Origin: a virus
Strand: one strand, 5' to 3'
IMG/VR virus record: IMGVR_UViG_3300017742_001896
Span: 1-44,690 of that record
DNA length: 44,690 bases
Shown: positions 1 through 44,526 of the stretch, in pieces
Layout of the letters: every line of letters begins with the position of its first letter
How positions within the stretch are numbered: the stretch's first letter is position 1
Made by a program: the position numbers and the translations under genes
The notes under the pieces: model-generated
What the model was told of the DNA's origin: nothing
The model's input: the letters and a program-made list of their open reading frames with translations, nothing else
Databases searched by the model: none

Positions 1-197
1 CGATCTAAATCTTCTTGTAATCCTCCCACAGTTGCGGCATTGATAACAACATGTGTAGGATTCTTTTGTAGTATATCTGTATATGTGCTTAGGTAATGTG
101 TATAGTCTGTTGTACTAGTATTACCACCATGAGCTTGTTTATACTCAGTATAATACTTTCCTACCAGTCCTCTATTGCCTGCAATATAATAAGTCAC
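1..197 (-). CDS. GDP-L-fucose synthase-like NAD(P)-dependent epimerase/reductase, N-terminal part (runs off left edge)
   Basis: About 65 codons are visible before the window ends. The frame opens with a GTG at 195-197 that overlaps the TGA of the upstream methyltransferase gene (GTGA overlap), the junction style used throughout this operon. Residues 5-13 read IAGNRGLVG, a Rossmann G-x-x-G-x-x-G dinucleotide-binding turn. Residues 50-60 read VVINAATVGGL, matching the N-terminal NADP-binding strands of the GDP-fucose synthase branch of the extended short-chain dehydrogenases, whose typical patterns are AGHRGMVG and AAKVGG. Such enzymes convert GDP-4-keto-6-deoxymannose to GDP-fucose in the cytoplasm. 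The catalytic Ser/Tyr-x3-Lys lies outside the window. The family-level call is fairly sure; the exact sugar is not. Confidence 0.7.
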   Translation of the reverse strand, partial: MTYYIAGNRGLVGKYYTEYKQAHGGNTSTTDYTHYLSTYTDILQKNPTHVVINAATVGGLQEDLD

Positions 198-4315: not shown

Positions 4316-5451
4316 AGTATTTTTTTAAATAACTCCAATTGACTTTGCATCCATAATGTATTATAGTGCTTGCGATTATATTCTAATATTTCTATCATAT
4401 CGTTGCTATATCCTTGTGTGATATCAATATTATTTCTTATCCAATCTAACGTTTGTAGTGCGGTATCTATACGCTGTTTTGCTGTATCAAGTTTATCATA
4501 ACGTTCATCCCAAAAGTCACCAAATGTGCGAAAACCTAAAGATCTAAGTTCATGCAAACTTCCTCTATCTCCAAACACTACAAAAGGTTTTCCTAATACA
4601 ATACTCCTACTTACTTTTTCAGTTAGAAATACTTTGTGATTACTACAATTAAATTCGCCAACAATATCTAAATAAGTTTGGTCACTGTAGTATTTTAAAT
4701 CTGTTATCTCAGGCATATGCTGTTTGTCTGTAACTGCACTATAACCATGATCCAATCTCTTTTTTAATTTTCTAAACGTTAGATCAATATCCTTAGAATT
4801 CAAATACTCGCTTAGGAACTTAGTAAACTCTTTGTTAGAAAAATTTTCTAAATCGTGTAAACTATATATACAGTTATCAAACAAGTCCATTTTGTATGCC
4901 TGATGTAGTGCATATACTCTGTGTTCTCTGCACCTTCTATTAAGCCATAAAAAATGTTTTTGCATTGGTGTTGTATTGTACAACACCTCAATGTTATGAG
5001 AGAATTCAAAGTATCTATTAAATGGTTCGTTATAATTTACTATGGGCCAATCGTCAAACTGTTCTACATATTGTATACTACTAGGACTTACAAAAGCACT
5101 GTTATCTAAGATGCTGTAGCGTTTACAAAGTTCATAACAAATTTTATAAAGGTCTAAACTAATTAAATTACCACTCAGCTGATTGTGCGTTTCATTTACA
5201 TTTACTGTGTGCCACCAATCTGTAAACATGAATATAAGTTTTGTTTTTCTATCTAATATATCCTGCCATACATCTGGATAGATAGTATCTAAATTTGAAA
5301 AATAATGTACTTGATCAAAAGGTATATCAGTGTGTGCTAAATGAAAAGGTGTATCCAACACCAGACAATGTTTACTGCCTTGAGAAATAAGATCAAGTGT
5401 AGTTCCACGCAACGGTCTGTGAGATTCACTAATGGGATGTAAGTTATTCAT
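4312..5451 (-). CDS. Glycosyltransferase-like protein (exostosin/fucosyltransferase-like C-terminal signature)
   Basis: I start this at the ATG at 5449-5451, giving 379 residues, because it overlaps the TAA of the upstream radical SAM gene and is preceded by GAGGA about eight bases away; an ATG 60 bases further upstream has no such support. Near residues 169-180 the chain reads LWLNRRCREHRVY, an arginine-rich motif seen in large phage and capsule glycosyltransferases. Near 271-320 it reads EFNCSNHKVFLTEKV, then GKPFVVFGDRG, LRSLGFRTF and WDERYD. The pattern TEK-x-GKPF-x-GF-TF-DE is typical of GT-B enzymes of the fucosyltransferase/exostosin sort, where it binds the sugar nucleotide. The function is inferred from these motifs plus the flanking sugar-nucleotide genes. 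Donor and acceptor are unknown. Confidence 0.55.
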   Translation of the reverse strand: MNNLHPISESHRPLRGTTLDLISQGSKHCLVLDTPFHLAHTDIPFDQVHYFSNLDTIYPDVWQDILDRKTKLIFMFTDWWHTVNVNETHNQLSGNLISLDLYKICYELCKRYSILDNSAFVSPSSIQYVEQFDDWPIVNYNEPFNRYFEFSHNIEVLYNTTPMQKHFLWLNRRCREHRVYALHQAYKMDLFDNCIYSLHDLENFSNKEFTKFLSEYLNSKDIDLTFRKLKKRLDHGYSAVTDKQHMPEITDLKYYSDQTYLDIVGEFNCSNHKVFLTEKVSRSIVLGKPFVVFGDRGSLHELRSLGFRTFGDFWDERYDKLDTAKQRIDTALQTLDWIRNNIDITQGYSNDMIEILEYNRKHYNTLWMQSQLELFKKIL

Positions 5452-6670
5452 GCCAGTATTCCTCAAATTCAGGTATAAACGAAAGTATGCTTTGTTTGCG
5501 TACTTTGTCAAGTTGATTTGTTTCTACTATAAACTGTTCCCACTTATCCGGATCACGCTCTGTATTCATTACATGCTCTAATAAACTGCGATTGTTTGAC
5601 ACCTCCCAATCTTCTGCATCAGCATTTTCTATTGCTGTGATAGCTTGTTCATAGCCTTTGTCTTTGAGTGATTGTGGCAAATGTATTGCATCCATCTGTG
5701 CAGGTTGTGTTACTTGTATTAGAAAAGGTAGAGTTGGGCCTATAGGCAATGTTGCTGTATAGTTGTACAAGTTACCTAAGTCGAGCCATGTTAAACTACT
5801 CAATGTACTGTGTACCTGTAATCGTAGTTTGTCCTCTCCTAGTTCTTGCTGTAGTTCAAATACTCTATTGAGATTACGTTCCCACTTGCTCCATTTGCCG
5901 GGCCATCTAACATATTCATTTACACCTTCAACACCATCACAACTCATGTTGATGTGTATGCTTTTGAACTGCTTCCACAAGTCGTATACTTTAGATTGTA
6001 TTGCTAGCATGTTGCTGTTGAACTGTACTACAATATCTTTGGATCTTCCGCTATCAATTATATGTTGTAGTATCTCATAGTACTTTGCATTAAACAATGG
6101 TTCGCCGCCTAGCATGTTTACATGTTTAAGTGTGGGTAATATTTCTGCAAATATTTTATCAAACTGTGGAGTGTAGTACCATTCAAATTTATCTTTGTTT
6201 AGATGTGGTGCAGTATCCCAAAAATCTAACTGAGGATTTTTATAAATCTCATCAGCCCACATACTGCTACTCCAAGGGTTACACATTCTACATTGTATAT
6301 TACATTTGTTGCCTAGTGTAAACTCTACATATTCAATTTTTATCTCATGTTGAAACTTATCTTTGGTACCACATTTAAAAATATCGTTCCACATATTACG
6401 ATAGCTTTCGCCACCATTAAGTTCACTTACCCAACATCTATCACAGAACGTGTGCTTGTGATTTTTTTCTATGTCTTTTCTTAATTCTACATGCGGTTGC
6501 CCTGTTAACAAGTCAGCAAGATTATCACTATTCCATATGCTTTTAAATTTCCATTTGGTATCTCTAAAACTTTGCTTGTGAAAGTTATAGTTACAACAAG
6601 GACGTACTTGACCTTGTGGGTCAATACTCAAATGATTGTAAGCCAATACGCAATAGGTTTCTTCTTCCAT
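5444..6670 (-). CDS. Radical SAM enzyme with N-terminal twitch-like domain (copy 1)
   Basis: The 408-residue protein has the radical SAM signature C123-x3-C127-x2-C130 (KCNIQCRMC), which holds the 4Fe-4S cluster that cleaves S-adenosylmethionine, and the GGEP motif at 188-191. Before the core lies a cysteine region with C7, C25-C26 and C76-x2-C79. Its spacing resembles the SPASM/twitch auxiliary-cluster domain, which normally sits at the C-terminus; the N-terminal arrangement matches the proteins known as twitch domain-containing radical SAM proteins. The sequence around C25-C26 (QVRPCCNYN) is a typical cluster-binding turn. The ATG at 6668-6670 shares one base with the TAA of the NTF2-like gene (TAATG), so translation is probably coupled. 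The substrate is unknown; neighbours suggest a glycan or a protein. Confidence 0.85.
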   Translation of the reverse strand: MEEETYCVLAYNHLSIDPQGQVRPCCNYNFHKQSFRDTKWKFKSIWNSDNLADLLTGQPHVELRKDIEKNHKHTFCDRCWVSELNGGESYRNMWNDIFKCGTKDKFQHEIKIEYVEFTLGNKCNIQCRMCNPWSSSMWADEIYKNPQLDFWDTAPHLNKDKFEWYYTPQFDKIFAEILPTLKHVNMLGGEPLFNAKYYEILQHIIDSGRSKDIVVQFNSNMLAIQSKVYDLWKQFKSIHINMSCDGVEGVNEYVRWPGKWSKWERNLNRVFELQQELGEDKLRLQVHSTLSSLTWLDLGNLYNYTATLPIGPTLPFLIQVTQPAQMDAIHLPQSLKDKGYEQAITAIENADAEDWEVSNNRSLLEHVMNTERDPDKWEQFIVETNQLDKVRKQSILSFIPEFEEYWHE

Positions 6671-6990
6671 TATTTTTTATATGCCTTGATACTTGTTATT
6701 TTGTCGTTACTAATAGTTAGTACGTCAATAACTGATAATTGTTCTTGTTCGTTGACATGCACTGTTATTTGTGCCATAACTTGATTTGTACTTGTAGCCA
6801 TATCGTGTACAGTAACATGTATTCCTGGTACTGCATCAAATATTTTTTGATTAGCACTGATAACTGCTTCTAGTCCACTTTCACTAATTTCCCAATCTGT
6901 TAGTGTTACTGCATCATGCAGTAAAGGTCTTAGTTGTTCTACGCTGTTTGCATTCCATGCATCAAAGTATTGCTGTACTAGTTGTTCCAT
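6670..6990 (-). CDS. Small NTF2-like / SnoaL-like protein
   Basis: This 106-residue protein opens with MEQLVQQYFDAWNANSVEQLRPLLHD, the helix pattern of the NTF2-like superfamily (F-x-A-W-N-x-x-D/S-x-x-x-L-x-x-L-x-x-D). It then shows VTLTDWE, a helix near 42-52, and alternating beta strands ending in LTISNDKITSIKAYKK, the usual last strand of this cone-shaped fold. Such proteins act as small enzymes (isomerases, hydratases, cyclases) or as binding subunits. The length is normal for a single domain. It lies between two radical SAM genes. Its ATG at 6988-6990 lies 28 bases inside the upstream radical SAM gene and has AAGGAT about nine bases upstream. A role as partner or follow-on enzyme for the radical SAM products is inferred only from position. 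Confidence 0.7.
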   Translation of the reverse strand: MEQLVQQYFDAWNANSVEQLRPLLHDAVTLTDWEISESGLEAVISANQKIFDAVPGIHVTVHDMATSTNQVMAQITVHVNEQEQLSVIDVLTISNDKITSIKAYKK

Positions 6991-7969
6991 AATTTCTATC
7001 CTTGTATTTTGTTATATAAATGTCTGTACCACAGTGACAGTGACTTTTTGGACATATCACACTTTCTGGCAAATCTAACTGTAAATTAGGATCGTACAAG
7101 TTTCCTACCTGAGGCATAACACCACAACTACCCATATCTATTTTACCTTCACAGTTAATAAAAATACTTTCCATTGGTATCAAACATTTCCATCCTTTGA
7201 AGTAATTACGACTTTCTGCTACCAGTCTATTACAATTAATAGGCTGTACTGATCCATCGTCATATACTTCAACACTTGCCATACCTTCAGCTTTAGCAGG
7301 TACACCAAACTTTATATCTTGTTCTAGGTTCGTAGTTTCTAAAAACTTTTTATGCTCTGGATTTTTATAGTTGTACGGTCGAGTGGTATGACTTAGTTCT
7401 TCAAATATCGGAACGTATTCAATACGCCAGTTTTCATCTTTCATCTCTTGCTTTATACGTTTGCTGAAATCTATTACTTGATCCCATGTGGGTTCATGCA
7501 TCATCATACGACCACACAAGTAATTTACTTTATCACTTAGGTATTTGTATATTTCCAAATAGTGATCACTGTCTACAAACTCTGGATGATAGCTTGCTAC
7601 TACGTCATCAAAGTAGTGTACATTCTTTTCCCACCATTTTAGTTTACTGCTTAAATTTGTGTTTACTGCAAACTTGACTTCACTCATTCCGCTTGCTAAT
7701 ATATGATCCATTACTTTAGTAAGTGGTTTCCAATAGCAAGGTTCACCTCCACTAAAGAATACTTTTAGTCTTGTATATCCTCTAGCAAGTTCATAGTCAA
7801 TCAGTTTGGTCAATCCTGCTTTTATAGCTTCAACATCTAAATTTAAATTACTACCATTCCAGTTGTATTCATTACAGTAGGTACAGCGAAAGTTACACAA
7901 GTTGCTTACTTGCCATGTAATATTAACAAACGGATCACCTGCTTGTTCTATTCTTGTTAGTTGATTCAT
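6962..7969 (-). CDS. Radical SAM enzyme, conventional architecture with Cys-rich C-terminus
   Basis: Unlike its five neighbours, this 335-residue protein has no N-terminal twitch-like region. The radical SAM motif is C25-x3-C29-x2-C32 (LCNFRCTYCN), close to the start, and GGEP lies at 74-77. The C-terminal third holds many cysteines (a GSCG segment, then CPKSHCHCG near the end), which fits a SPASM/twitch-type auxiliary cluster domain in the usual C-terminal place. Enzymes of this build often modify peptides or proteins. The ATG at 7967-7969 overlaps the upstream TGA (ATGA), with an AAAGGTG ribosome binding site. It is the only radical SAM gene paired directly with the NTF2-like gene. The substrate is unknown. 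Confidence 0.82.
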   Translation of the reverse strand: MNQLTRIEQAGDPFVNITWQVSNLCNFRCTYCNEYNWNGSNLNLDVEAIKAGLTKLIDYELARGYTRLKVFFSGGEPCYWKPLTKVMDHILASGMSEVKFAVNTNLSSKLKWWEKNVHYFDDVVASYHPEFVDSDHYLEIYKYLSDKVNYLCGRMMMHEPTWDQVIDFSKRIKQEMKDENWRIEYVPIFEELSHTTRPYNYKNPEHKKFLETTNLEQDIKFGVPAKAEGMASVEVYDDGSVQPINCNRLVAESRNYFKGWKCLIPMESIFINCEGKIDMGSCGVMPQVGNLYDPNLQLDLPESVICPKSHCHCGTDIYITKYKDRNYGTTSTAIL

Positions 7970-9243
7970 ACCAACACCTTTGCGGCAATATTAGGAAATG
8001 TACTAATCCAGTTTGTATTTCTATTGCGGTCCATAGTATCGTTAAATTCTCTAAATCTACTCAGTAACTTTTGTCTCTTTTTTTCTTCCATTGCATCAGA
8101 TTCTAATAATTTAATTGCTTGCTGTACTCCATGATTCCAATATAAGTTTAAGTTATCGTAATGAGGATCATAATTTTTAAGTCTATCAGCGGCTTCTTGT
8201 CTTACTTGTTTATCTACTATACGAATATCTAAGTACGGGGGATTATCTAAGACTATGGGAGACCATATATAAAGTAAGTTTTGCTCTTTGTGATTATTTT
8301 TAAACTGTACAACCCAATCTAAAATTTGTGGAATATCATCATAATTATAATTTTGTAATACAGTATAATGTTTTATTTTCCATGTATGGGGAAGTTTATA
8401 CCACAGTTTGTTTATGTTCTTTTCTACATGATCCCATTTAGTTGGGAATCTAATATATTCGTTTCTATCATACACACTGTCTATACTGATCTGCACTTCT
8501 CCGTTTTTAAACTGAGTAAGTGTATTGTAAAAATCTTCGTTCCAATGTGTTAAGTTTGTTGTTAGTGCAACATAACATTCATCATTGCCACTGCGGAGTA
8601 TTATATTCATTATTTCTATATTGCGCCGTATAAGTGTTGGCTCGCCTCCAGTCAAATAAAGTCTTTTAAGTGTTGGAGCAAGTTTTTGTATTGTATTGTC
8701 AAAGTCTTTACTTTGCCACCAATTCATGTTACTAGCACTTGCCATGTTAATTTCTTTTGTCCATTCGTCACGAATCCAACCAGGCAAACTATGATCTGTA
8801 TCTAATATTTTCATACGCTCATCATGTATTCTATCACTGCTTAGACTCCAACAGCTATTACATCTTAAATTGCAAAAATTACCCAATCTCAGTTCTAAAC
8901 TGTTTGGCAATGGAGGTCTACTGTGCATACTACTATCACGCCTTAGTCCGATATCGTTGTATTCAGTAAAAGCACTTTGTCTACTGCTTTGTATTCCTAA
9001 ATCTTCTAAACGCCAACATACATCACACGCTTTAGGCTTTTCACCTTTTAGTAATTGTGATCTTATATCTACCATATAATCACTATACCAAATCTCTTCT
9101 ATACTGTTAGTGCCAAAATTAAATTCGCTACCGTCGGTATTTTTTGCATGTATGTTTTCTGTAATGCTACAACACAACTTCACACTGCCTTCAGTATTGC
9201 TGTTTAAATTTACAAAAGGATGTAAGCAAAAAGTTTTACTCAT
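7966..9243 (-). CDS. Radical SAM enzyme with N-terminal twitch-like domain (copy 2)
   Basis: The 425-residue chain carries C124-x3-C128-x2-C131 (FCNLRCNSC) and a TGGEP motif at 198-202. The N-terminal cysteine set is C6, C24-C25, C73 and C76, the last pair in CDVCW, the same spacing as in the other twitch-like copies. The C-terminal 200 residues contain a radical-SAM-type partial barrel (DSVYDRNEYIRFP is the recognisable substrate-side strand) and a helical tail rich in aromatic and charged residues. The start at 9241-9243 overlaps the upstream stop (ATGA) and has GAGG seven bases ahead. It is closest by eye to the copy at 5444-6670. Function beyond radical chemistry cannot be read from the sequence. 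Confidence 0.85.
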   Translation of the reverse strand: MSKTFCLHPFVNLNSNTEGSVKLCCSITENIHAKNTDGSEFNFGTNSIEEIWYSDYMVDIRSQLLKGEKPKACDVCWRLEDLGIQSSRQSAFTEYNDIGLRRDSSMHSRPPLPNSLELRLGNFCNLRCNSCWSLSSDRIHDERMKILDTDHSLPGWIRDEWTKEINMASASNMNWWQSKDFDNTIQKLAPTLKRLYLTGGEPTLIRRNIEIMNIILRSGNDECYVALTTNLTHWNEDFYNTLTQFKNGEVQISIDSVYDRNEYIRFPTKWDHVEKNINKLWYKLPHTWKIKHYTVLQNYNYDDIPQILDWVVQFKNNHKEQNLLYIWSPIVLDNPPYLDIRIVDKQVRQEAADRLKNYDPHYDNLNLYWNHGVQQAIKLLESDAMEEKKRQKLLSRFREFNDTMDRNRNTNWISTFPNIAAKVLV

Positions 9244-10493
9244 GCTAGTGCCTCTGCTAATTCAGGTATTGCTACACGCCAATCTTCATGTCTAATAGGA
9301 TCCCATTCTTCAAGCTGGTGAATAGTTTTTTCTAATAAGTCACTGCGATCTTCGCTGTGTAAAAAATTAAGCATACCTTCTGCACTGCGAACAAAGTTTT
9401 GTCCTGAATCATATTGAGGATGATTTTGAACCCAATGAATATGCTGTTCCCATTTAGCTGTAATTTTATCTTTGAATGTCTTAGGCAATACTTGCATACA
9501 AAAGTAATCAGGATCTAGTAAGTTGTTGATACGCATTTGTCCTACTTTAAGTAATCCTTTGTTTACCCAATCTTCGTGAAAGTCTGGTAAATGATATACG
9601 TTCATACAACTTACTGTTGGTGTAATATCAAAATTAATGTTAGGAGTTTGTTCCATCATTAGTTGTCTATTAGCAACTATGTCACTCCATACTGTGCCTT
9701 TTCTAATATATTCAGCACGACTTCCCATACCATCTAAACTTGCTGTACATTCTACACTTTTAAATTTTTTCCATAAGTCTAATACATTTTGTCTTTTGTA
9801 AGTAAGCTGACTAAAGTTGGTTGTATACAAAACATTTACTTCATGAGCTCTGTTAGTCTCAATCCAATAGTTCATAATTTTCCAATGCATATCAGTTACA
9901 AGCGGCTCACCGCCTGCCCAGTAAACTTCCTCAACAGTATCCAAGTAGGGCCAAAGTTCTTCTTCAAAGCCTTTTTTGTTTTTAAGTTGTATAAATTTTT
10001 GAGGTGCAATATCGTTAGGTACCTCACCAAACTTTTTCATAAAGTCGTCATACCATTGTGTACTAAATGTAGGACTGCAACTTCTACAACTCATATTACA
10101 TAAATTACTAAATCTAAAATCCATGTATGTGAAGTTTACATTATTGTGCGTTCCGTCTTGTTGTGTTTCAAGAGTTTTGCTATAGTGCTTTTCACCAAAC
10201 TTTTTGTTCATATTAATGCGTAGTGTATGTGCATCGCCGTCAGCTTCTAATCTATAACACCTTGTACAAGTAGGGTGTGGTTTGTCTGCTAGCATATTAA
10301 GTCTAAGTTTTTTAGCAACATCACTGTTCCATAATTCTTTAAGTGTACTTTGATTTGTATTTCCGTAATCTCCTTTAGCAGGATCTGCCAAACAACAAGG
10401 AAATGCACGACCATTGGGCCATACATGCATATGAATCCACGGAGCCATACAAAAGAATTTGCTCTCAGTTAGATTATACTTTTTGTCGTTCAT
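9240..10493 (-). CDS. Radical SAM enzyme with N-terminal twitch-like domain (copy 3)
   Basis: I choose the ATG at 10491-10493 (417 residues) over one two codons upstream: AGAGG at 10500-10504 sits six bases from the chosen ATG but directly against the upstream one, and the chosen ATG shares a base with the previous TAA. The radical SAM motif is C132-x3-C136-x2-C139 (LCNMSCRSC) and the GGEP motif is at 194-197. Twitch-like cysteines are C15, C33-C34, C76 and C79, with the block FCMAPWIHMHVWPNGRAFPCC around the first three. The same block is nearly repeated in the next gene upstream, so the two are recent paralogues. The conserved ASLDGMGSRAEYIRKGT strand follows the core. The substrate is unknown. 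Confidence 0.85.
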   Translation of the reverse strand: MNDKKYNLTESKFFCMAPWIHMHVWPNGRAFPCCLADPAKGDYGNTNQSTLKELWNSDVAKKLRLNMLADKPHPTCTRCYRLEADGDAHTLRINMNKKFGEKHYSKTLETQQDGTHNNVNFTYMDFRFSNLCNMSCRSCSPTFSTQWYDDFMKKFGEVPNDIAPQKFIQLKNKKGFEEELWPYLDTVEEVYWAGGEPLVTDMHWKIMNYWIETNRAHEVNVLYTTNFSQLTYKRQNVLDLWKKFKSVECTASLDGMGSRAEYIRKGTVWSDIVANRQLMMEQTPNINFDITPTVSCMNVYHLPDFHEDWVNKGLLKVGQMRINNLLDPDYFCMQVLPKTFKDKITAKWEQHIHWVQNHPQYDSGQNFVRSAEGMLNFLHSEDRSDLLEKTIHQLEEWDPIRHEDWRVAIPELAEALA

Positions 10494-11779
10494 TACCATC
10501 CTCTGTTAACCACTTTCTCATAGTGATCACCGTACTCTTTAAGTTTTTCCAACTCAGTATAGACTTCATAGCAATCGTTGTTACGGATTTTATCCATCCA
10601 ACGTTGTTCATCATGAAACCTGTCTATAAGTTGAGAATTATCTTCACTCCATAGATATTTAAGCAATCCGTCAATCATACTTTGTACTATTGAAGGATCA
10701 TACTTCCAATCTGGGTGTGCTATATGAAATGCACGTTCAATATATTCTTGATGTTCAATCCAACGCTTCTCAATACGTTTTTTCAATTCTTGTGGCATAA
10801 CAGTCATACTTAAATATTCAGGATGTGTAAGTAATGTGAGGTTGAACTCTATAGGATCTACTAGACCTTCTTCTATCCATTCTTTGTGAAAATCGGGCCA
10901 ATGTAGTGCATTAAAGATGCTAATAGTACTGCTTAAAAAGAATCTTGTATTAGGACTTTCTCTAATCATCTCTTTGCGATTTTTTACAATATCAGTCCAT
11001 ATTGTATCTTTACGCAAATATTCTGCACGTTGCCAATTATCATCTAAACTAGCACCCACATGTACATTACTGAACTTATTCCAGTAATCAAATATATAAC
11101 GTTTACCTAATCTAGTTTGTGTAAAATTGGTTGTATAACTTATTTTTAAATCAGTATTGCCTGACTCAATCCATGTGTCTAACATCTCATAATGCTCTTT
11201 GGTCATCAGAGGTTCGCCACCTGCAAAATAAGCATGTTTGACTTCACCTATTAAAGGGAGTGCTTGTTTCCAAAAACTCTTGGGTAATTGTAGTAGTGCA
11301 GGTCCATCATACTCGTGTCTTTTGATACTGTCTTGATACCAACTACTGCTAAATTTTACACTACAACTCAAACATCTTAGATTACAAAGATTATTAAATC
11401 TAACATCCCAATAGTATATTTTTGGATCGTCGTGACTTCCATCTGCACTAGTAGCTTCTGTCCTGTGAAAGTAATCTGCAAAGTTTTGGTTTAGTTCTCG
11501 TCTTAGTGTGTATTGATTACCTGCTTGTTCTTGTTGTATGCAACGTTCACAAGTTTGACTTGGCTTGTCAGCAAGCATATTAACACGCAACTCTTTCATT
11601 AGACTGCTATTCCACAAATCAGATATACTATTGTCTCTGATATTTCCTAACTTTCCACTGAAAGGTTTATCTTCATCTGGCAATACAACACAACAAGGAA
11701 ACGCTTCCCCACTGGGCCAAAGATGCATTGTTATCCAAGGTGCCATACAAAAGTTTTTACTATGTAACAGCTTAGACAT
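10493..11779 (-). CDS. Radical SAM enzyme with N-terminal twitch-like domain (copy 4)
   Basis: This 428-residue paralogue of the gene downstream has C132-x3-C136-x2-C139 (LCNLRCLSC), GGEP at 187-190 and N-terminal cysteines C11, C29-C30, C77 and C80. The N-terminal block FCMAPWITMHLWPSG and the strand ASLDDNWQRAEYLRKDT are shared with copy 3, as are the MLADKP and TC-x-RC segments. The ATG at 11777-11779 overlaps the upstream TAA by eight bases; the ribosome binding site is weak, so coupling to the upstream gene is likely. The pair could form a heterodimer or act on successive positions, but that is inference from duplication and adjacency only. Confidence 0.85.
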   Translation of the reverse strand: MSKLLHSKNFCMAPWITMHLWPSGEAFPCCVVLPDEDKPFSGKLGNIRDNSISDLWNSSLMKELRVNMLADKPSQTCERCIQQEQAGNQYTLRRELNQNFADYFHRTEATSADGSHDDPKIYYWDVRFNNLCNLRCLSCSVKFSSSWYQDSIKRHEYDGPALLQLPKSFWKQALPLIGEVKHAYFAGGEPLMTKEHYEMLDTWIESGNTDLKISYTTNFTQTRLGKRYIFDYWNKFSNVHVGASLDDNWQRAEYLRKDTIWTDIVKNRKEMIRESPNTRFFLSSTISIFNALHWPDFHKEWIEEGLVDPIEFNLTLLTHPEYLSMTVMPQELKKRIEKRWIEHQEYIERAFHIAHPDWKYDPSIVQSMIDGLLKYLWSEDNSQLIDRFHDEQRWMDKIRNNDCYEVYTELEKLKEYGDHYEKVVNRGW

Positions 11780-13454
11780 AGCCTATCTGATCCTTAAGTT
11801 CATCTTTGTCATAAATTTTTGTAGGTAAGTTTCTAATACGCCGCCAATTTAAAATACTTTTTGCTAGCTTTGGGTGTTGCCAAACAAAATCATCGTCCCA
11901 ATGAAACTCTACAGCGGTTCCATCTATAGTATCTTTCATTAGGTATTGCTTACATTCATTATTATATTCAATGTTTTTAATATCTTCTAATGTAGCACAC
12001 AAGTCGTAATACTGGCTCATTTCAGGGAACACTTGTTTAAAGTTAGTACCTCTTCTTTTATCTGTTGCTTTGATAAACAGTATAAAATTTCTTCTAGCAT
12101 CATCAATTTGTCTACACTGTAGATATTGATTCTCATCAGTTTGTCTTACTTTTCCTCTTTGTTCTACAATACTGTGCCAATAGCTAATTACCCTATCCCA
12201 CATTTTAACTTCTTCTTTACTAAAGTAATTACTCCAAACTGTATCATGGTGATGTTTTGTATATTTGTCTTGATTATTTGCCCAACTCCATTCTGCAAAA
12301 TATTCAGTAATATACTCAAAATAACTTTCGTAATCATCTGGTAACCCTATCAATGAAAACTGATTTGGTTCTGTACAGTGTGGAATATCAAATGTAATCT
12401 TAGGACAATATGCTCTGTTGTGTAACTTACCTCTCCAGTATCTTATTTTTTCTAAGAACTTGACGTAGCTTGTAACACTTAGTATATTGAATGTATTCAT
12501 TATCTTAACACCACTAAAAATATGCTCGTCGTGATGTTCTAATCCTCTCATTACACTTTCTAAATTTGTTTCAAATAAATCCAAGTCTAATCCATTCCTA
12601 GCATATGCGGCTTGATCGCCCCAACTTTCAACACTTGTGAATACTGCAAACTTTTTTATTTTTTTCTCTTTGAGTAACTTATCAACTTTTTGTATTAACC
12701 TATGTACAAGTTTGTTTTTAACATTTAGGTTAGTATTGAGTTGAAAAATCATATCTTTACAATCGTCCGATTGTTCTAACATGTCTAGCCATTTCCATAC
12801 GTTTTGCTGTAGTAATGGTTCACCACCAGTTACCCTAATTACTTTGAGATCTTTTCTTAAACTGGGCCACCATTCCCAAAATGCATCTACATAAGGATTG
12901 CTTGTTTCTTCGTAAATTTCTTGTTCTACCACTTGTAAGTGTTCTGCATTTTCCAGTGGTCCTTTTAGTTGCATCTCTTTCATCCAAGCACTGCTAGCCT
13001 TAGGATGACAGTATGCACACCGCATGTTGCACTCATTGCCAAAACTTATTTCTAAGTATGTAGGATTGTAATCATGTTTCCAACCATTTTCTAATATAAT
13101 TTTGTGTGCTTCGGGTGTTAGCAGTGTTTCGTTTTTACTTTTTATAATCCTATCACTTATGTGTTCTTCGCCCATTGCTTCAACACGCCAACAGTAGTTA
13201 CATTCGCTAGGTCTATTACCTTTAAGCATTTGTTCTCTTCTGTCTTTTTTAAACTGTGTATTGTGTAATGCACTCGGATTCTTTTTAATTTCCGCTAATG
13301 GAATTTTATGAGGTAACGGATGATAACAACTGTGTGTTTCACCTGTTTGTAAATATATTGTACTACTTAAAAACTTTGCTGTACACATGGTATCACAGCC
13401 GTACACTTTTTTCATTACGTCACGTTCAGTATAGTAATCAATATTTTTAAACAT
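11772..13454 (-). CDS. Radical SAM enzyme with N-terminal twitch-like domain, long form (copy 5)
   Basis: At 560 residues this is the longest radical SAM protein here. C142-x3-C146-x2-C149 (ECNMRCAYC) and TGGEP at 209-213 mark the core. Its N-terminal cysteine region is sparser than in copies 1 to 4: C20 and C24, a single C43 in place of the CC pair, then C85-x2-C88 (CNYCW). A central insert before the GGEP strand includes PYVDAFWEWWP near 187-197, which is repeated almost exactly in the next gene upstream, showing that the two are paralogues. The C-terminal extension of about 200 residues is rich in Trp, Tyr and His. The ATG at 13452-13454 overlaps the upstream TAA. The substrate is unknown. 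Confidence 0.85.
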   Translation of the reverse strand: MFKNIDYYTERDVMKKVYGCDTMCTAKFLSSTIYLQTGETHSCYHPLPHKIPLAEIKKNPSALHNTQFKKDRREQMLKGNRPSECNYCWRVEAMGEEHISDRIIKSKNETLLTPEAHKIILENGWKHDYNPTYLEISFGNECNMRCAYCHPKASSAWMKEMQLKGPLENAEHLQVVEQEIYEETSNPYVDAFWEWWPSLRKDLKVIRVTGGEPLLQQNVWKWLDMLEQSDDCKDMIFQLNTNLNVKNKLVHRLIQKVDKLLKEKKIKKFAVFTSVESWGDQAAYARNGLDLDLFETNLESVMRGLEHHDEHIFSGVKIMNTFNILSVTSYVKFLEKIRYWRGKLHNRAYCPKITFDIPHCTEPNQFSLIGLPDDYESYFEYITEYFAEWSWANNQDKYTKHHHDTVWSNYFSKEEVKMWDRVISYWHSIVEQRGKVRQTDENQYLQCRQIDDARRNFILFIKATDKRRGTNFKQVFPEMSQYYDLCATLEDIKNIEYNNECKQYLMKDTIDGTAVEFHWDDDFVWQHPKLAKSILNWRRIRNLPTKIYDKDELKDQIGYV

Positions 13455-14907
13455 TATGCTTTTCTTTCCAATCTAAGAACAACTGTGCAAACTCCGGAAA
13501 TGTATGACTAAAATCTGTTTTACGTCTATAGTCATGTGCTCCAAAGAATCTAACAAAATTTTCTTCCGCATCTTGTTTCTGCTGGTCGTTATCAAATCCT
13601 TGCTTCATAAATTCAATACTACGATCAAATCTTTCAATTTGATGTGGTTTGAATCCTATCCATCTACTAGCTCTGTGCCTGTCTTGATTCTCTTTCATAA
13701 ATGCTAAACACTCGTCAGCAAGATACCAATGACTCTTAGGCGTAAGCTGTAAACTTTGCCACTCCGGATGTCTTAACATAGGTGTATCCAAAAATACTTT
13801 ACTGTGACCATATACTACAATTTTACCACTATCATCTCTTCTACTTTTTGTTACATTGTGAATACGCTGTAATTCTAATATACCTTCCATTAAACGTTGT
13901 ATGCTAGGTAAACTAAGCATGTTGAACGTTACAATAAACGTTACCAATCCTTCGTCCACTCTAGTTAGATAATTATTTACATTGTTCCACATGCGATCAA
14001 AGTCTAATCCATGACGCATATATTCAGCTTGTCTACCCCATCCATCTACACTAACAAACATACGAAAACGTTTTAGTTTTTTATACTCACTTATGAAACT
14101 TACTTTATCAACAAAGTTATTCCACAATTTATCAGGTACACTACAATTTGTAGTTACAGCCATTTCTAAATCGTCTCTGCCATTGTCAATAACATGATCT
14201 AAAACTTTGAATGTATTTTTATCCATGAGCGGTTCTCCGCCTGTCATTCTAAAGTTTTTTAGTTTTGGATAAAGTTCCGGCCACCATTCCCAAAATGCAT
14301 CTACATAAGGATTGTGATCTCTATTTTTAATAGGATATTGTCCTATTTGTTTAAAGTAGTCAATGCTATTGTGAGGTACTTTGGTTGGATAAGGTCCATT
14401 TTGTTCAATATCTTCTGCCCACTTACTGCTTAGATGCGGACTACAATAATTACATGCTAAGTTGCAAGCATGATTAAAATTGATCTCCATGCTTGTAGGT
14501 TCTATATCGCCATCTGCACCTTTTTCTAATACATCTTTCCAACCAGCTTGTGCCCAAGGTTCGCTACTTCGATAGTGTCTATCACTATTAAAATTACGAT
14601 CCATCTTTTCAATATTCCAACAGTAGTCACACCCGCTAGGTTGTTCTCCTTTGAGCATCATAGCTCGTTGTTCTTTTTTCTCTGGTGTATTGTGTAATGC
14701 TTTTGGATTATTTTTTAGATCTTCTGCATTAATTTTATGTATAGGAGGTAGGTAGCAACTATTAGTTGTTCCATTGGTTAAATGAATACTGGTCCACAAC
14801 CATTTAGCCATACACATACTATCACTTATTTCAGCAAGTTTTGGCTTTACTAGTTGTGCGGCTGTTTCCGGATCTGGATCAAGTTCGTAATTGTTTGTGT
14901 TTGTCAT
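13447..14907 (-). CDS. Radical SAM enzyme with N-terminal twitch-like domain, long form (copy 6 of the radical SAM series, paralogue of copy 5)
   Basis: The 486-residue protein has C148-x3-C152-x2-C155 (ACNLACNYC), GGEP at 223-226, and N-terminal cysteines C32, C51 and C93-x2-C96 (CDYCW). It shares with the gene downstream the segments ALHNT near 70, MLKG-x-xPS-x-C-x-YCW near 84-97, and PYVDAFWEWWP at 200-210. VSVDGWGRQAEYMRHGLD is the equivalent of the conserved substrate-side strand. The ATG at 14905-14907 overlaps the TGA of the nucleotidyltransferase-cupin gene (ATGA). This is the first radical SAM gene to be transcribed, directly after a sugar-nucleotide enzyme, which is the best contextual hint that the series is linked to glycan chemistry. 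Confidence 0.85.
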   Translation of the reverse strand: MTNTNNYELDPDPETAAQLVKPKLAEISDSMCMAKWLWTSIHLTNGTTNSCYLPPIHKINAEDLKNNPKALHNTPEKKEQRAMMLKGEQPSGCDYCWNIEKMDRNFNSDRHYRSSEPWAQAGWKDVLEKGADGDIEPTSMEINFNHACNLACNYCSPHLSSKWAEDIEQNGPYPTKVPHNSIDYFKQIGQYPIKNRDHNPYVDAFWEWWPELYPKLKNFRMTGGEPLMDKNTFKVLDHVIDNGRDDLEMAVTTNCSVPDKLWNNFVDKVSFISEYKKLKRFRMFVSVDGWGRQAEYMRHGLDFDRMWNNVNNYLTRVDEGLVTFIVTFNMLSLPSIQRLMEGILELQRIHNVTKSRRDDSGKIVVYGHSKVFLDTPMLRHPEWQSLQLTPKSHWYLADECLAFMKENQDRHRASRWIGFKPHQIERFDRSIEFMKQGFDNDQQKQDAEENFVRFFGAHDYRRKTDFSHTFPEFAQLFLDWKEKHNV

Positions 14908-15677
14908 CGTCTTATGATGTCCTCTTCAATACAATTTTCACCATATTGTACTTCTAATATATGTGCAGGTTTATCACCTTCGTTGGTTACTTTATGCCAC
15001 CAATTATTCTGTATCACAAAGTTTGTGTGTTCAGTTAGCATTTGTATTTGCCAGTCTCCATTGGGAAATTCTAAGTTAATTGTAACATCACCTTTTAACA
15101 CATACCAATGTTCACTTCTCATTTTATGTTTCTGGTCGCTTAAACTAGCTCCTGGGTTAATAACTAATTCTTTTACTTTTATAGTTTTCTTATCATCTAA
15201 TACACGCCAGTAACCCCATTCACGTTCAGTCTTTTGTGTCCGCCATTCATCTAATATCCAACTGCTTGAATTCTTTTTATCATTGCCGCCAACTCCAAAT
15301 GCAAATTCTACATCTGGATGATTACCGTACTCTTCGTATTCTGGAGTTGTAGTATTGCTTCTATCTCCACCATTTGCAAATATTAATTTACCAGCGTTGG
15401 TACATAGTGCTAAAAATATTCCTTGATTCGCTGTATCATCACTATCATCAAATCCAATTATTTTATCTACTACTTCTAATTCTCTGATAATTGACGCACG
15501 TTCTGCAAAAGGCATGAACGCTTTTCCTTTTTTACGCATTAGCCATTCGTCACTGTTTACACCAACGACTAGCTTGTCGCCTAATGCTCTAGCGGCTTTG
15601 AAATATGCTATATGTCCACTGTGTAGAGGATCAAATCCGCCAGTAACCAGTACTGTAGATTTATTCGATACTGTCAT
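14904..15677 (-). CDS. Fusion of HldE/TagD-type nucleotidyltransferase and type II mannose-6-phosphate isomerase-like cupin
   Basis: Read from the ATG at 15675-15677, the protein has 257 residues. Residues 10-80 form a cytidylyltransferase-like domain: VTGGFDPLHSGH at 11-22 with the nucleotide-binding H19-x-G-H22, then VVGVNSDEWLMRKKG, as in heptose-1-phosphate adenylyltransferase (RfaE/HldE C-terminal half) and glycerol-phosphate cytidylyltransferase. Residues 154-257 form a cupin: WGYWRVL, then KHKMRSEHWYVLKGD at 183-197 and LEVQYGENCIEEDIIRR at the end, the diagnostic tail of mannose-6-phosphate isomerase type II and GDP-mannose pyrophosphorylase cupins. A single polypeptide could thus isomerise and activate a sugar phosphate. 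The start overlaps the upstream glycosyltransferase gene by 17 bases. A longer in-frame start at 15752 lies inside that gene and is unlikely. Confidence 0.82.
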   Translation of the reverse strand: MTVSNKSTVLVTGGFDPLHSGHIAYFKAARALGDKLVVGVNSDEWLMRKKGKAFMPFAERASIIRELEVVDKIIGFDDSDDTANQGIFLALCTNAGKLIFANGGDRSNTTTPEYEEYGNHPDVEFAFGVGGNDKKNSSSWILDEWRTQKTEREWGYWRVLDDKKTIKVKELVINPGASLSDQKHKMRSEHWYVLKGDVTINLEFPNGDWQIQMLTEHTNFVIQNNWWHKVTNEGDKPAHILEVQYGENCIEEDIIRR

Positions 15678-16638
15678 CAACTTGGTTTTCTCTAACCATT
15701 GCACCAAGTCTGTGTGGATTTTTATAAACCTTCTTAAAGAATCTACTAGCAACTTTGTCCATATCTGAAATTTCTAAATCTAGCTCACCGCGAAGATCTG
15801 CACCAAGTTCTACTGTTTTCTTTTTAAGTTTATCCCAATCCCATGTTACTCCAGTGTTCACACACATTTCAGTTCCGTCTTCAAACTCAGGAAATAATTC
15901 TGTATTAAAAAAGTTAGTTAACCAATCAAAATCTCTCACATTACGCCAGTCCCACTTGCGTCTTTCAACATTGGTCATATGACAACCTAGTCTTGCACCA
16001 TAAATTGCCCATAAACCGTTTGTTGCATCTTCGCCTACACTCATCCATACTAATAGTCTTTTGTAATTTTCGTGAAATATTTTTTTGATATCTTTTGCTT
16101 CAACTACATCTCCACCTTCTAATCCCATCTTTACGCCTTCACGAAAACCTGCTCTCCATGCTTGTAGTGGACTAGCATTGTTAGCAACATCACAATAGAT
16201 GTTATTCATTTGTACATACTGTATGTTCCAACAAAAATCAACCTGTGCGGCTTTATCACTTTCAGGAGCAGCTTCATGTGTACGCATCTTGTTTACTACG
16301 TCTACGGGCCAACATTTGATGCCGCCGTTGCCATATACCAATCCGTTTACTGCATTTTTTCCTGCCCAACTAATAACATCTGTATCCTTAATTCTTTCCA
16401 TGTCTAGTTCGACATTAAAGAAGTCATCTCTAACTACATTATCTGCATCAACTGTAACAAATCTATCTGTATCACTCATTGCCGCAGCCGCTTTGTGTGC
16501 GGCATCACTGCCCCATACTCCATGACTACGTTTTGCCCAAGGACATTTTTCTAATAGATGTGCATAATTTTGTTCAGCGTTTGGTTCGTCATAGCTGATG
16601 AAGACTATATCAAATTCTGTAATTGGTATTAGTGGCAT
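15661..16638 (-). CDS. GT-A glycosyltransferase-like protein
   Basis: The 325-residue protein starts with FDIVFISYDEPNAEQNY, a first Rossmann strand followed by an asparagine-rich turn, and then shows RFVTVDADNVVRDDFF at 59-74. D64-x-D66 is a DxD motif of the kind that coordinates a metal ion and the nucleotide-sugar diphosphate in GT-A enzymes. GNGGIKCWPVDVV follows as the acceptor-side segment. Proteins with this opening are found in T4-like cyanophages (recalled, not searched). It lies just upstream of the nucleotidyltransferase-cupin gene and four bases after the unknown gene at 16643. Transfer of a sugar activated by the neighbouring enzymes is inferred. The acceptor is unknown. Confidence 0.65.
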   Translation of the reverse strand: MPLIPITEFDIVFISYDEPNAEQNYAHLLEKCPWAKRSHGVWGSDAAHKAAAAMSDTDRFVTVDADNVVRDDFFNVELDMERIKDTDVISWAGKNAVNGLVYGNGGIKCWPVDVVNKMRTHEAAPESDKAAQVDFCWNIQYVQMNNIYCDVANNASPLQAWRAGFREGVKMGLEGGDVVEAKDIKKIFHENYKRLLVWMSVGEDATNGLWAIYGARLGCHMTNVERRKWDWRNVRDFDWLTNFFNTELFPEFEDGTEMCVNTGVTWDWDKLKKKTVELGADLRGELDLEISDMDKVASRFFKKVYKNPHRLGAMVRENQVDDSIE

Positions 16639-16642
16639 ATGG

Positions 16643-17641
16643 CTAGCTTTCTGTTATATCAAATGTTGTGTTTCTATTTTCTTCTCGCAATAGAAATGCA
16701 CTATTTTTAAGGTCTAATTCGGACTCAATCTCTAATGTGACGTTATATCCGATATCTTTTTTAGGTAACATTAGTGTTCCTAGTAGTCTATTAGGGTCGT
16801 TTTTATCTGTAACATATAAACCCACATCATTATAAATTTTAACTGTTGACGGATCTTTAAAATTACTTCTCAAACTAAAAGAATTATCTTTAGATATTAT
16901 TGTAAAATCACACAGTACTTCGCTATTACTTATCTGTGGAATAATATGCCTTCTTCTAATACTTCTTCTACTTGTATAATCAGCACCAACAAATGTTGCT
17001 TTCTTTGTAACACGATAGGTCTTAAAGATTTTCTTTGTTAGGATACTCATTTCTCCAAGTCCGCAAACATTTCTAAATGCACTCATATCAAATAGCAAGT
17101 ACCCTTGTTCAACGAGTTCACCCGGATCAATATCAATTTTTTTAATTAAGAAGTTAGGATCTTTGTCTTTAATAATGTATAATGTAATGTTGTCGTATTT
17201 TCCATCTTTCTCTGGATTAATTGTTGCTTGTTTAAAATATCGTTTACCAGTCATTTTATAAAGTGTATCTTGGTCGAAGTTTACTTCCATCTTCCAACTG
17301 TTGATATACATAATAATGTTTACATCTGCTTTGGTTTTATCATTAACAGGAATCATACTAAGAGACTGTTCAGCTTCTTTGATACGCAATACTGCTGACT
17401 TTTCTGCTAGTATAAAACTATCTTCTGTTTCAAGTATAGAGAATTTTTTAGGGTCTTGTATACCCATAAGAATTTTTCGTGCATCATCATTTTCTGTAAA
17501 AAAATGAGGAGACTTAATTTCATCTAACACACGGTTAGTGACTGTTATAACTTCTCCAGAATCATCATCATAGTATACACACCATTTTTTAGGTGCTTTT
17601 TCTTTTTTTAGATTCTGTAATAAACTTGGTTCTGTAGACAT
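16643..17641 (-). CDS. Unknown protein between glycosyltransferase genes
   Basis: I do not recognise this 332-residue protein. It opens MSTEPSLLQNLKKEKAPKKW, a flexible charged head, then a beta-rich body (WCVYYDDDSGEVITVTNRV, VNIIMYINSWKMEVNFD, ITLYIIKDKDPNFL) and a very basic stretch RRSIRRRHIIPQ near 230. No signal peptide, membrane helix or catalytic motif is seen. It begins 53 bases inside the preceding glycosyltransferase gene, the longest overlap in the window, with only a weak ribosome binding site, so translation may depend on the upstream gene. The beta-rich, non-enzymatic look would fit a virion or scaffold protein that might serve as the glycosylation acceptor, but this is a guess from location. 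Confidence 0.6.
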   Translation of the reverse strand: MSTEPSLLQNLKKEKAPKKWCVYYDDDSGEVITVTNRVLDEIKSPHFFTENDDARKILMGIQDPKKFSILETEDSFILAEKSAVLRIKEAEQSLSMIPVNDKTKADVNIIMYINSWKMEVNFDQDTLYKMTGKRYFKQATINPEKDGKYDNITLYIIKDKDPNFLIKKIDIDPGELVEQGYLLFDMSAFRNVCGLGEMSILTKKIFKTYRVTKKATFVGADYTSRRSIRRRHIIPQISNSEVLCDFTIISKDNSFSLRSNFKDPSTVKIYNDVGLYVTDKNDPNRLLGTLMLPKKDIGYNVTLEIESELDLKNSAFLLREENRNTTFDITES

Positions 17642-18467
17642 GCATCACTTCGTCGGTTAAAAATGTTTCGTCGCTATAGTGAATAATTCCACTAGGTAGT
17701 ATATGGTTTTCTATTTGTATCCTTTGGTGATTGGTAACCCAGGTATTCATAAACTCAGTCCATCTTTCTGGAACATCTTCGTCAAATATTCCATGTGAAA
17801 ATTTATGTAGATCTATATGGTTGTTTACATAAATTCTTGAATCTATTTCTGCGTCTAAAAAATGTGTTACTAAGTTACACAGTACATTTTTCTCAAAATC
17901 TTGAGGTTTTTTATCAGTAAACACTTTATTGTATACATCTCTCCAATACTGGAGAACTGGATCTGCCATCTTAAACCATTCAATAGCCAATGGAGATTTT
18001 TGCTTCCAATATATCATATTATAATATAGTTTAGGAAGTTTATATTGTAGTTCGTATTGAAATCTTAGACCTTGTGCTGCAGAATATCCTCTATAGTTAT
18101 TAGCATTGCCAGGAAAACTAATGTCATTGGTTGACATTAGATCCCATAAAGTCTCTAAATCAGTATTAATCAGCAGTGTGTCGTAGTCTAAATATATGGT
18201 TTCGTCAAAAGGTGTACAATGATAAAGTTGCCATAAATTCATGCCATGGAAACCATCTTTGTAAGCACTGTTACCATAAGGTAATTCAACAATGTAGTCA
18301 AATATATGTTCATAATATTGGCTTACCATATCTAAACGACCTTTGTCAACTACTAAACAAATTTCAGCAGTAGGATCGATTATTTTTAAACTACAAGCTA
18401 GTGTATAACAGTACTTGATTTTATCTTCGCCTGTGTCAATACCTAATGTAATAAATCCTCTACTCAT
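17589..18467 (-). CDS. GT-A glycosyltransferase-like protein (GT8-like)
   Basis: The 292-residue chain starts GFITLGIDTGEDKIKYCYTLACSLK, a first strand and helix typical of GT8-type enzymes (a single-domain fold beginning with the nucleotide site). ETIYLDYDTLLI at 89-100 contains the D94-Y-D96 metal motif in the usual LDxDxL context. The segment KDGFHGMNLWQLYHCTPFDET just before it matches the family pattern of a Lys-Thr/Trp-rich acceptor loop. The start at 18465-18467 overlaps the upstream TAG, with a GGAAAAAG binding site. It is a diverged partner of the next gene upstream (similar order of motifs, DTDF versus DYDT). Donor sugar and acceptor are unknown. Confidence 0.65.
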   Translation of the reverse strand: MSRGFITLGIDTGEDKIKYCYTLACSLKIIDPTAEICLVVDKGRLDMVSQYYEHIFDYIVELPYGNSAYKDGFHGMNLWQLYHCTPFDETIYLDYDTLLINTDLETLWDLMSTNDISFPGNANNYRGYSAAQGLRFQYELQYKLPKLYYNMIYWKQKSPLAIEWFKMADPVLQYWRDVYNKVFTDKKPQDFEKNVLCNLVTHFLDAEIDSRIYVNNHIDLHKFSHGIFDEDVPERWTEFMNTWVTNHQRIQIENHILPSGIIHYSDETFLTDEVMHVYRTKFITESKKRKST

Positions 18468-19377
18468 TTACTTTTTCCGCCTCATCTAAATTTTCTAATA
18501 GACCAAAGTAATGTCTATCTAATGCCCGCTTGTTCATAATGTGTAGATTATTTTCTTTATGTCTAACTAATATATTTTTCCATTGTTCGACTCTGTTGTG
18601 TTTTAAAAATATAATGTCGTCGTGTCCGTTCATTCCTATAATATCATCTTTTTGATCCATGTTTAACAGCGGTGTATTTAGAAAGTCATGTACAAATTCT
18701 TCATTCGTAAACCCATTCATCAGATGTGTGGCAATACTTACACAAAAGTCTGTTCTAAATAATGATTTAGGAAACTGATACAACAAACTGTAGTACTCCC
18801 AATGTTCTTTTACATGAGCCCACATATCAAAGAATATCTTACTTTCTTCACTTTGATCAAAGTAAACCACAGTACTCCACCAATGCTGAATGCCACCCTC
18901 ATTTAATGTTATCTCATTTATATAAGGACGCTCGCTACCAATATATTCTGCATACCTGTGTAATCCAACAGGAATATCTGTTTCAAACAGATACTGGTAA
19001 AAGTCGTTCATAATTAAAAAGTCTGTGTCTAATAGCAATGTTTTTTCAAAAGGTGTTAGTTCAAAAACTTTATGCTTATTTGTATTGGTAAATTGTGCGT
19101 TAAACTCTGTCCAAGGACTATCCATGTGTTTACGCATATTTTGTTCGTGTTGCACATTGTTAATTATAATGTAATCAAACAACGATTTTATTTCTTGCTG
19201 TGTCTTAGTTTCGTTCAGCCAGTTTTCAGTACCTTCGTCAGTTATGAGAGCTACTTTTATTCCGTTCATATAATGCTTGGCATAACGTGAAGCCAGACTA
19301 GCAAATTTAGTATAATCTAGTTCTTGGTTATTGTATGCGAACATACATATGCCTTGAGGTTCAAATTTTTCTGCCAT
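18460..19377 (-). CDS. GT-A glycosyltransferase-like protein
   Basis: This 305-residue protein resembles its downstream neighbour in layout: an N-terminal strand (GICMFAYNNQELDYTKFASL), a second Rossmann unit (IKVALITDEGTENWL), then FEKTLLLDTDFLIMND at 110-125 with D117-T-D119 as the metal and nucleotide site. GGIQHWWSTVVYFD near 175 looks like the acceptor-binding region. No membrane segment is present, so it should act in the cytoplasm. The start at 19375-19377 shares a base with the TAA of the small gene upstream (TAATG), and no separate ribosome binding site is obvious. It is the second gene behind the dual promoter at 19750-19779. Confidence 0.65.
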   Translation of the reverse strand: MAEKFEPQGICMFAYNNQELDYTKFASLASRYAKHYMNGIKVALITDEGTENWLNETKTQQEIKSLFDYIIINNVQHEQNMRKHMDSPWTEFNAQFTNTNKHKVFELTPFEKTLLLDTDFLIMNDFYQYLFETDIPVGLHRYAEYIGSERPYINEITLNEGGIQHWWSTVVYFDQSEESKIFFDMWAHVKEHWEYYSLLYQFPKSLFRTDFCVSIATHLMNGFTNEEFVHDFLNTPLLNMDQKDDIIGMNGHDDIIFLKHNRVEQWKNILVRHKENNLHIMNKRALDRHYFGLLENLDEAEKVNE

Positions 19378-19724
19378 TACCAGTCCATTAATGTTTTAAT
19401 ATTTCTAGCTTTTTTAATTTTATCTAGTTGTACTTTATATTCATTTGTGGATTCGGTATAAGCACTAAGTAATGATTCTAAAAAATCAGATAGATCAGTA
19501 ATCTCAATAGGATTTTCTTTAGTGTCTAATATGATACTAAACGTTTTTCCTTTATCGATCAATGTTTTTATAAAACTGATTGTGACAGGATCAGCATGAA
19601 ACACACCATTATTATAGTGAACAGTTTGTAATACTAATGCTCGTTGCTTTAGTGTATTCTTCTGATTACTTAGAGTGATGCGATAATTTGCAAAGTCTAG
19701 AGCTTTCTCGAGTCTCTCATCCAT
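19377..19724 (-). CDS. Small protein of unknown function, first gene of the cargo operon
   Basis: The 115-residue protein (MDERLEKALDFANYRITLSNQK... ending ARNIKTLMDW) is predicted to be mostly helical with a short central beta section (VHYNNGVFHADPV, SIILDTKENPIEI). It closely recalls a small protein widespread in T4-like marine phages that also ends in KARN-x-x-x-LMDW, but its role is not known to me. It has the clearest translation start in the region: AAAGGAGA at 19731-19738, six bases before the ATG at 19722-19724. Being first behind a sigma70-like and a late promoter, it may be made in high amount. It could be a tail/neck accessory protein rather than part of the glycan pathway. Confidence 0.65.
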   Translation of the reverse strand: MDERLEKALDFANYRITLSNQKNTLKQRALVLQTVHYNNGVFHADPVTISFIKTLIDKGKTFSIILDTKENPIEITDLSDFLESLLSAYTESTNEYKVQLDKIKKARNIKTLMDW

Positions 19725-19785
19725 AGAGTTTCTCCTTTAGTTAACTACTACTATAACTTATTTATGCTGTGGTTGTCAAGTGTTT
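19725..19785 (-). promoter_or_regulatory. Leader region with sigma70-like promoter and embedded late-promoter octamer
   Basis: On the minus strand TTGACA (19774-19779) is followed by 18 bases and TATAGT (19750-19755), one mismatch from the host -10 consensus. Inside the spacer lies CATAAATA (19759-19766), a variant of the T4 late promoter. A perfect 10-base palindrome TAGTTAACTA (19738-19747) covers the expected early start site. The region precedes the gene starting at 19724 and is the only sizeable gap between 194 and 37747. Confidence 0.6.
19759..19766 (-). promoter_or_regulatory. T4-type late promoter octamer (CATAAATA variant)
   Basis: CATAAATA on the minus strand, 34 bases ahead of the ATG at 19724, with a good ribosome binding site in between. 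T4-like late promoters consist of such an octamer alone, recognised by the phage late sigma factor (gp55 family). One base differs from the classic TATAAATA. Confidence 0.5.
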
Positions 19786-22487: not shown

Positions 22488-22506
22488 TGTTCTTTCCAAT
22501 TTAAAG

Positions 22507-22514
22507 TATTTATA
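22507..22514 (-). promoter_or_regulatory. T4-type late promoter (TATAAATA)
   Basis: An exact TATAAATA on the minus strand, overlapping the stop codon of the giant structural gene and 19 bases before the ATG at 22487. Spacing to ATG and the base after the octamer (C) are nearly the same as at 44514-44521, which supports both. Confidence 0.75.
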
Positions 22515-37747: not shown

Positions 37748-37752
37748 ACAAG

Positions 37753-37760
37753 TATTTATG
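37753..37760 (-). promoter_or_regulatory. Possible late promoter octamer (CATAAATA) directly before gp25
   Basis: CATAAATA on the minus strand within the 32-base gap before gp25. It ends five bases before the ATG, so a transcript from it would have almost no leader. It may therefore be inactive, or give a leaderless gp25 message. Confidence 0.35.
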
Positions 37761-44513: not shown

Positions 44514-44521
44514 TATTTATA
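44514..44521 (-). promoter_or_regulatory. T4-type late promoter (TATAAATA) of the tail operon
   Basis: Exact TATAAATA on the minus strand, 18 bases before the ATG at 44495, followed by a strong AGGAGA ribosome binding site. It probably drives the whole tail operon from 44495 leftward. Confidence 0.8.
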
Positions 44522-44526
44522 GTAGA

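Follow-up and report, generated by a model that had tools for sequence, protein, structure and literature searches.

A candidate composite early/late promoter, with a late octamer nested in a sigma70 spacer, in a marine T4-related phage fragment

How might a phage express one gene block both early and late in infection from a single intergenic gap? The question is raised by a 44.7-kb virus fragment (the window, that is, the whole stretch of 44,690 nt that was analysed), in which all main genes lie on the minus strand and the right half holds genes for T4-type baseplate and tail proteins. Judged by its baseplate protein, the nearest named relatives are jumbo T4-related phages, e.g. Phosso, SCTP-2, GAP32 and CBB (34–39% identity). 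Along the minus strand, from position 1 to the tail genes, the 61 nt at 19725–19785 form the one intergenic gap that exceeds a few bases, bearing out what a sequence-only reading of this DNA had said. That gap probably holds one composite early/late promoter (a probability of roughly three in four); from sequence comparison we infer use of both starts, their timing and a handover between them.

The gap, its signals and the gene that follows

On the minus strand the order is TTGACA ACCACAG CATAAATA AGT TATAGT AG TAGTTAACTA AAGGAG AAACTCT ATG (Table 1), so the sigma70-type promoter and nested octamer were correct to the base as the sequence-only reading had described them. The sigma70-type promoter matches 11 of 12 consensus positions, with an 18-base spacer, upstream of a gene. 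CATAAATA begins 7 nt past the -35 hexamer, lies 34 nt before the ATG, and conforms to the sequence of a T4-type late promoter, an octamer NATAAATA (or RCTAAATA) shortly 5′ of a gene. Both promoter types lie directly 5′ of the same gene, the arrangement of the overlapping early/late class.

Table 1. Coordinates of the promoter elements and associated genes in the window
Feature	Position	Strand	Basis or remark
-35 hexamer TTGACA, sigma70-type (early) promoter	19774..19779	-	sequence; sigma70 promoter in 84/84 distinct relatives
Late octamer CATAAATA, nested in spacer	19759..19766	-	sequence; motif enrichment; TAAATA core invariance
-10 hexamer TATAGT, sigma70-type promoter	19750..19755	-	sequence; kept in relatives
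Palindrome TAGTTAACTA, over predicted early start	19738..19747	-	most likely incidental
Ribosome-binding site AAGGAG, common to transcripts from either start	19732..19737	-	sequence; AGGAGAA top upstream motif in relatives
115-aa first gene, ATG at 19724	19377..19724	-	predicted DUF4376-like fold
Downstream gene block	1..19377	-	continues past window edge; genes overlapping or nearly touching
5-nt-spaced octamer, CATAAATACTTGT/ATG, of gp25-like gene 37385–37747	37385–37760	-	sequence

The downstream block encodes radical SAM/SPASM proteins, a nucleotidyltransferase/cupin protein, a UDP-glucose dehydrogenase, a methyltransferase and unknowns. Searches for a terminator between the block and the upstream tail genes, for an Rfam family over the gap and for a tRNA in the window found none, and a nucleotide search of the promoter region against isolates gave no match. 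Two 12/12 sigma70 promoters were also noted on the minus strand inside coding sequence of the block, at 2878–2850 and 3657–3630; one of the pair is about 60 nt 5′ of the methyltransferase gene, and both are also present in the near relatives G012 and G014. At the other end of the window, 44514–44571 contains a divergent back-to-back pair, a minus-strand late octamer TATAAATA, belonging to a minus-strand nucleotidyltransferase-like gene, and a plus-strand 12/12 sigma70 promoter.

Each scan with the 115-aa protein reported 540–550 homologous stretches. Pfam and PHROG searches assigned it no family, the DUF4376 Pfam profile matched none of nine family members even at an E of 10, and tblastn in named phages gave no match. 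Single-sequence folding was poor; an AlphaFold2 model from an alignment of 65 relatives reached a pLDDT of 90.6. A fold search of the PDB with this model returned nothing significant, and most named viral Foldseek matches were DUF4376 proteins (probability near 1.0, E 0.002–0.02, query TM 0.47–0.65). Phage fibre chaperone genes typically sit directly after their fibre genes, and the 115-aa gene is preceded by two structural genes, of which one has tail-fibre matches. The predicted fold looks DUF4376-like, resembling a tail-fibre chaperone, and we take this as a fold-level lead rather than as membership; in Alteromonas phages DUF4376 is a domain found in tail-fibre chaperones (PMC7289586, PMC10579305). 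The block had been called a cargo operon, a description to be amended for its first gene: going by the model the operon probably opens with a gene of fibre-assembly type before the sugar/radical-SAM genes.

The sigma70 site by itself is unremarkable: the window has six sites with at least 11 of 12 matches, against a mean of 2.8 (maximum 7) after shuffling. TTGACA-N3-9-ATAAATA occurred at a mean of 0.16 in the shuffled window. Across nine relatives plus the window (1.13 Mb), nested sites with a good -10 numbered 12, against a shuffled mean of 0.1. The looser pattern TTGAC-N6-13-octamer, counted genome-wide, was mildly above control (11, against 3–9 for scrambled octamers), and it was the -10 requirement that sharpened the contrast. 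Window counts alone do not decide the matter; because the nested arrangement is conserved in relatives, we judge that it is not due to chance.

Conservation of both signals at two genes

Relatives of the 115-aa protein were gathered and 84 distinct upstream regions compared. The sequence-only reading had named such an alignment as a check, and both promoters proved to be conserved. The sigma70 promoter was present in all 84 regions and a late octamer in 67, lying inside the spacer in 62 and adjacent to the promoter in 5. The 62 nested octamers comprised 48 of the form NATAAATA and 14 of the form [AG]CTAAATA. The remaining 17 regions, mostly from distant lineages, had the sigma70 promoter alone without a recognisable octamer, from which it appears that the late half is dispensable to the locus in some relatives. 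We had considered that every lineage without NATAAATA had lost the late site; this was partly rejected, as 14 of the 84 have [AG]CTAAATA in the same register. In L065, L067, L076 and L380 the octamer is found just upstream of TTGACA rather than within the spacer, and its reappearance beside the promoter where the geometry differs suggests that the pairing has been retained.

Conservation is sharply bounded within the spacer. Where the spacer was 18 bases long (30 distinct promoters), identity was 40–77% over its first six bases and 100% in the TAAATA core, with the -35 at 100% and the -10 at almost 100%. The octamer was separated from the -10 hexamer by exactly 3 nt in 50 of the 62 nested cases. 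On a tree of 81 proteins, members of a lineage tended to share a promoter state, and the states changed at least 12 times; the tree is built on few columns and many of its forks are unresolved.

When the large relatives G001 and G005 were classified gene by gene, both signals were found together only at the 115-aa gene and at a T4 gp20-like portal gene, and scans of other relatives agreed. The portal loci are the upstream regions L221–L300, G001:62048–63733 and G005:86127–87809. Here the octamer was nested in 34 of 51 distinct upstream regions, typically as TTGACA-N5-NATAAATA-N3-TATAAT. Another 13 had an octamer without a promoter passing our rule, several of them keeping TTGACA with a weaker -10; three had the octamer after or overlapping the -10, and one had neither signal. 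In the nested portal promoters ATAAATA is invariant, with variable bases on either side, and the early promoter is a consensus or near-consensus sigma70 promoter. A full early promoter on the portal gene, a structural gene, was unexpected in these marine phages. Six isolated jumbo relatives lacked the nested design at their portal genes.

The octamer as a late signal, and predicted leaderless transcripts

We compared 7-mers de novo in the upstream regions of seven large relatives. The top-ranked words were those containing TTGACA, ATAAATA, and the ribosome-binding site (AGGAGAA). ATAAATA was counted 93 times within 33.7 kb of gene-upstream sequence, as against 39 in the 858 kb of coding sense strand, an enrichment of about 60-fold, and the base preceding it was free genome-wide in the relatives. 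The form [AG]CTAAATA, the documented late consensus of Aeh1 (PMC1524935, PMC2988020), was enriched 27–40-fold upstream of genes, with at most 2 of 15 instances coming from the 115-aa gene locus. At the portal gene, the Agrobacterium phage Atu_ph07 has CTAAATA where Phosso has ATAAATA.

Genes preceded by the octamer alone include those for tail sheath, tail spike and virion proteins, and look late; among those preceded by the sigma70 promoter alone are the gp55 gene and genes for an exonuclease, a QueE-like enzyme and endonucleases, and they look early by the same sequence classification. A late sigma of gp55 type, matching phrog_12791 as well as phrog_234, was found in 9 of 11 large relatives. 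It was not found in G002 or in the nearest relative, G012 (a 68-kb fragment), both of which are incomplete; its presence in this particular phage is presumed from the group, the window being a fragment. For CBB, RpoD-like and ATAAATA promoter classes and a gp55-like sigma have been reported (PMC5259590).

Within the window, all four minus-strand ATAAATA copies lie 5–34 nt before a gene start, if the likely internal ATG is counted for the one at 22514. That copy, TATAAATA at 22514–22507 on the minus strand, is near the end of a 3765-aa gene and some 19 nt ahead of an ATG inside ORF 21888–22571. Its position suggests that the listed GTG start of this ORF is too far upstream and that 22514–22507 is probably a late promoter.

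Evidence for leaderless mRNAs emerged when the late start of the nested promoter was calibrated. In seven relatives the distance from octamer to start codon was bimodal: it was 5 nt exactly in 22 genes, hardly any fell at 9–17 nt, and a broad group lay at 18–40 nt. A ribosome-binding site was present in none of the 22 genes at the 5-nt spacing, against 73 of 88 in the 15–40 group. Counted independently of gene calling, ATAAATA-N5-ATG occurred 31 times, against 2–9 times for spacings of 2–4 and 6–8, and scrambled octamers gave a flat profile. The same 5-nt spike is present in Pelagibacter phage HTVC008M (8 genes) and absent in S-PM2, Syn9, CBB and RB49. Octamers at this spacing without a ribosome-binding site were noted at genes among G001–G009 and in HTVC008M, and the window has one such spacing (Table 1). 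In T4, late transcription begins six bases past the octamer, which occupies -13 to -6 (PMC1524935). Together with the 5-nt spacing, such a start predicts leaderless late mRNAs from these genes, with the 5′ end at the A of ATG. A light literature search found no published report of leaderless late mRNAs of this sort.

Readings of the composite promoter and its place among known systems

In the composite reading, host RNA polymerase with a sigma70-type factor would act early in infection on TTGACA-N18-TATAGT, starting near 19743. Later the same core polymerase, redirected by the phage gp55-like sigma and clamp partners, would use CATAAATA and start near 19753, where the late +1 is predicted as six bases past the octamer. 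In a T4 late promoter the octamer is the sole element; it stands roughly one turn 5′ of the start, and no -35 element is needed (PMC2988020), so nesting in a sigma70 spacer is mechanically possible. Because the sites overlap, one holoenzyme at a time would be bound, making for mutual exclusion and thus for handover rather than addition. Both transcripts would keep AAGGAG and start with the 115-aa gene, so that the block would be expressed in both phases. The dual early and late use advanced by the sequence-only reading fares well to this extent: both promoters are conserved and separable, a gp55-type sigma is present in the group, and the gene classes fit. Late expression of the block could also come about without the nested octamer, by read-through, given that the tail genes have a late octamer of their own at 22514–22507 and that no terminator was found.

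A sharper form of the composite reading can be offered tentatively, at something short of an even chance. The exact 3-nt separation of octamer and -10 would space the starts by about one helical turn, and the site would act as a relay, passing from host sigma70 to gp55 by mutual exclusion as replication begins. As part of the same tentative proposal, the 115-aa gene and the portal gene, which are unrelated, would both have acquired or retained the design.

A variant of the composite reading, differing in time course alone, is a middle-mode promoter with its peak at the early/late transition. The same proposal was made for RB49, S-PM2 and Syn9, but quantitative PCR of a small number of such genes in S-PM2 gave no middle profile (PMC2984593), and the portal protein, a structural part, has the same design here; we regard a middle mode as unlikely.

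Alternatively the promoter might be early only, the octamer-like bases being just an AT-rich sigma70 spacer that has been conserved, or a remnant with no late activity. The sigma70 half is universal while the octamer is missing in 17 of 84 relatives, and late transcripts could enter from upstream as described above. However, invariance ends exactly at the octamer edges, the first base is free as in the genome-wide late motif, and the octamer reappears beside the promoter where the spacer geometry differs. Nor would an AT-rich spacer yield one 7-mer that is both depleted in coding sequence and enriched 5′ of structural genes, and on this evidence we consider an early-only promoter improbable. 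The converse, a promoter that is late in practice because, in its natural host, the sigma70 hexamers work weakly or not at all, could draw on the suboptimal 18-base spacer and TATAGT and on a first gene that looks like a fibre-assembly gene; it is very improbable, given that TTGACA and the -10 are better conserved than the octamer (84/84) and that 17 relatives have the sigma70 promoter alone. The suggestion that the perfect palindrome TAGTTAACTA is the operator of a repressor-controlled early promoter can hardly be sustained, for although it spans the predicted early start, it is kept in just 6 of 84 distinct relatives, and ten-base palindromes are not over-represented in the window, which has 42 against 59 after shuffling.

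Having preferred the composite early/late promoter, we can compare it with known systems. Overlap of an early with a late promoter has been proposed before, in the T4-like phages RB49, S-PM2 and Syn9, which lack MotA/AsiA (PMC2984593). The likeness is that the same gene is served by a sigma70-type signal (early) and by NATAAATA (late); the difference is that the present octamer falls within the sigma70 spacer, where its spacing hardly varies, and that it has been conserved throughout a large clade of marine phages. RB49 has no TTGACA-N3-8-ATAAATA site. Isolates do have single nested sites: in S-PM2 (117302) and CBB (105282), TTGACA-N17-TATAAT encloses GATAAATA, and Atu_ph07 has a minus-strand site at 323464 (L519, about 323380–323464), just 5′ of a tRNA-like sequence (the tRNA judged by eye). 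All three share the nested anatomy, and their hexamers are consensus or close to it, but the downstream genes differ.

With the late class of T4, S-PM2 and CBB (gp55-RNAP, TATAAATA/NATAAATA/ATAAATA) the promoter shares the octamer sequence and its free first base, the placement before structural genes and a gp55-like sigma gene in relatives. It differs in that the octamer overlaps a full sigma70 promoter, and in that sister lineages have [AG]CTAAATA, the Aeh1 form, in the same place. The more than 100 distinct promoter sequences at the two genes make a large natural comparative set, one that bears on how T4-like phages without MotA bridge genes between the early and late programmes, and the conserved nesting predicts two starts about 10 nt apart. 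The kind of promoter is known in T4-like phages; what is new, and well supported by sequence comparison, is that the octamer's nesting in the spacer has been conserved at both genes throughout a large clade of marine phages.
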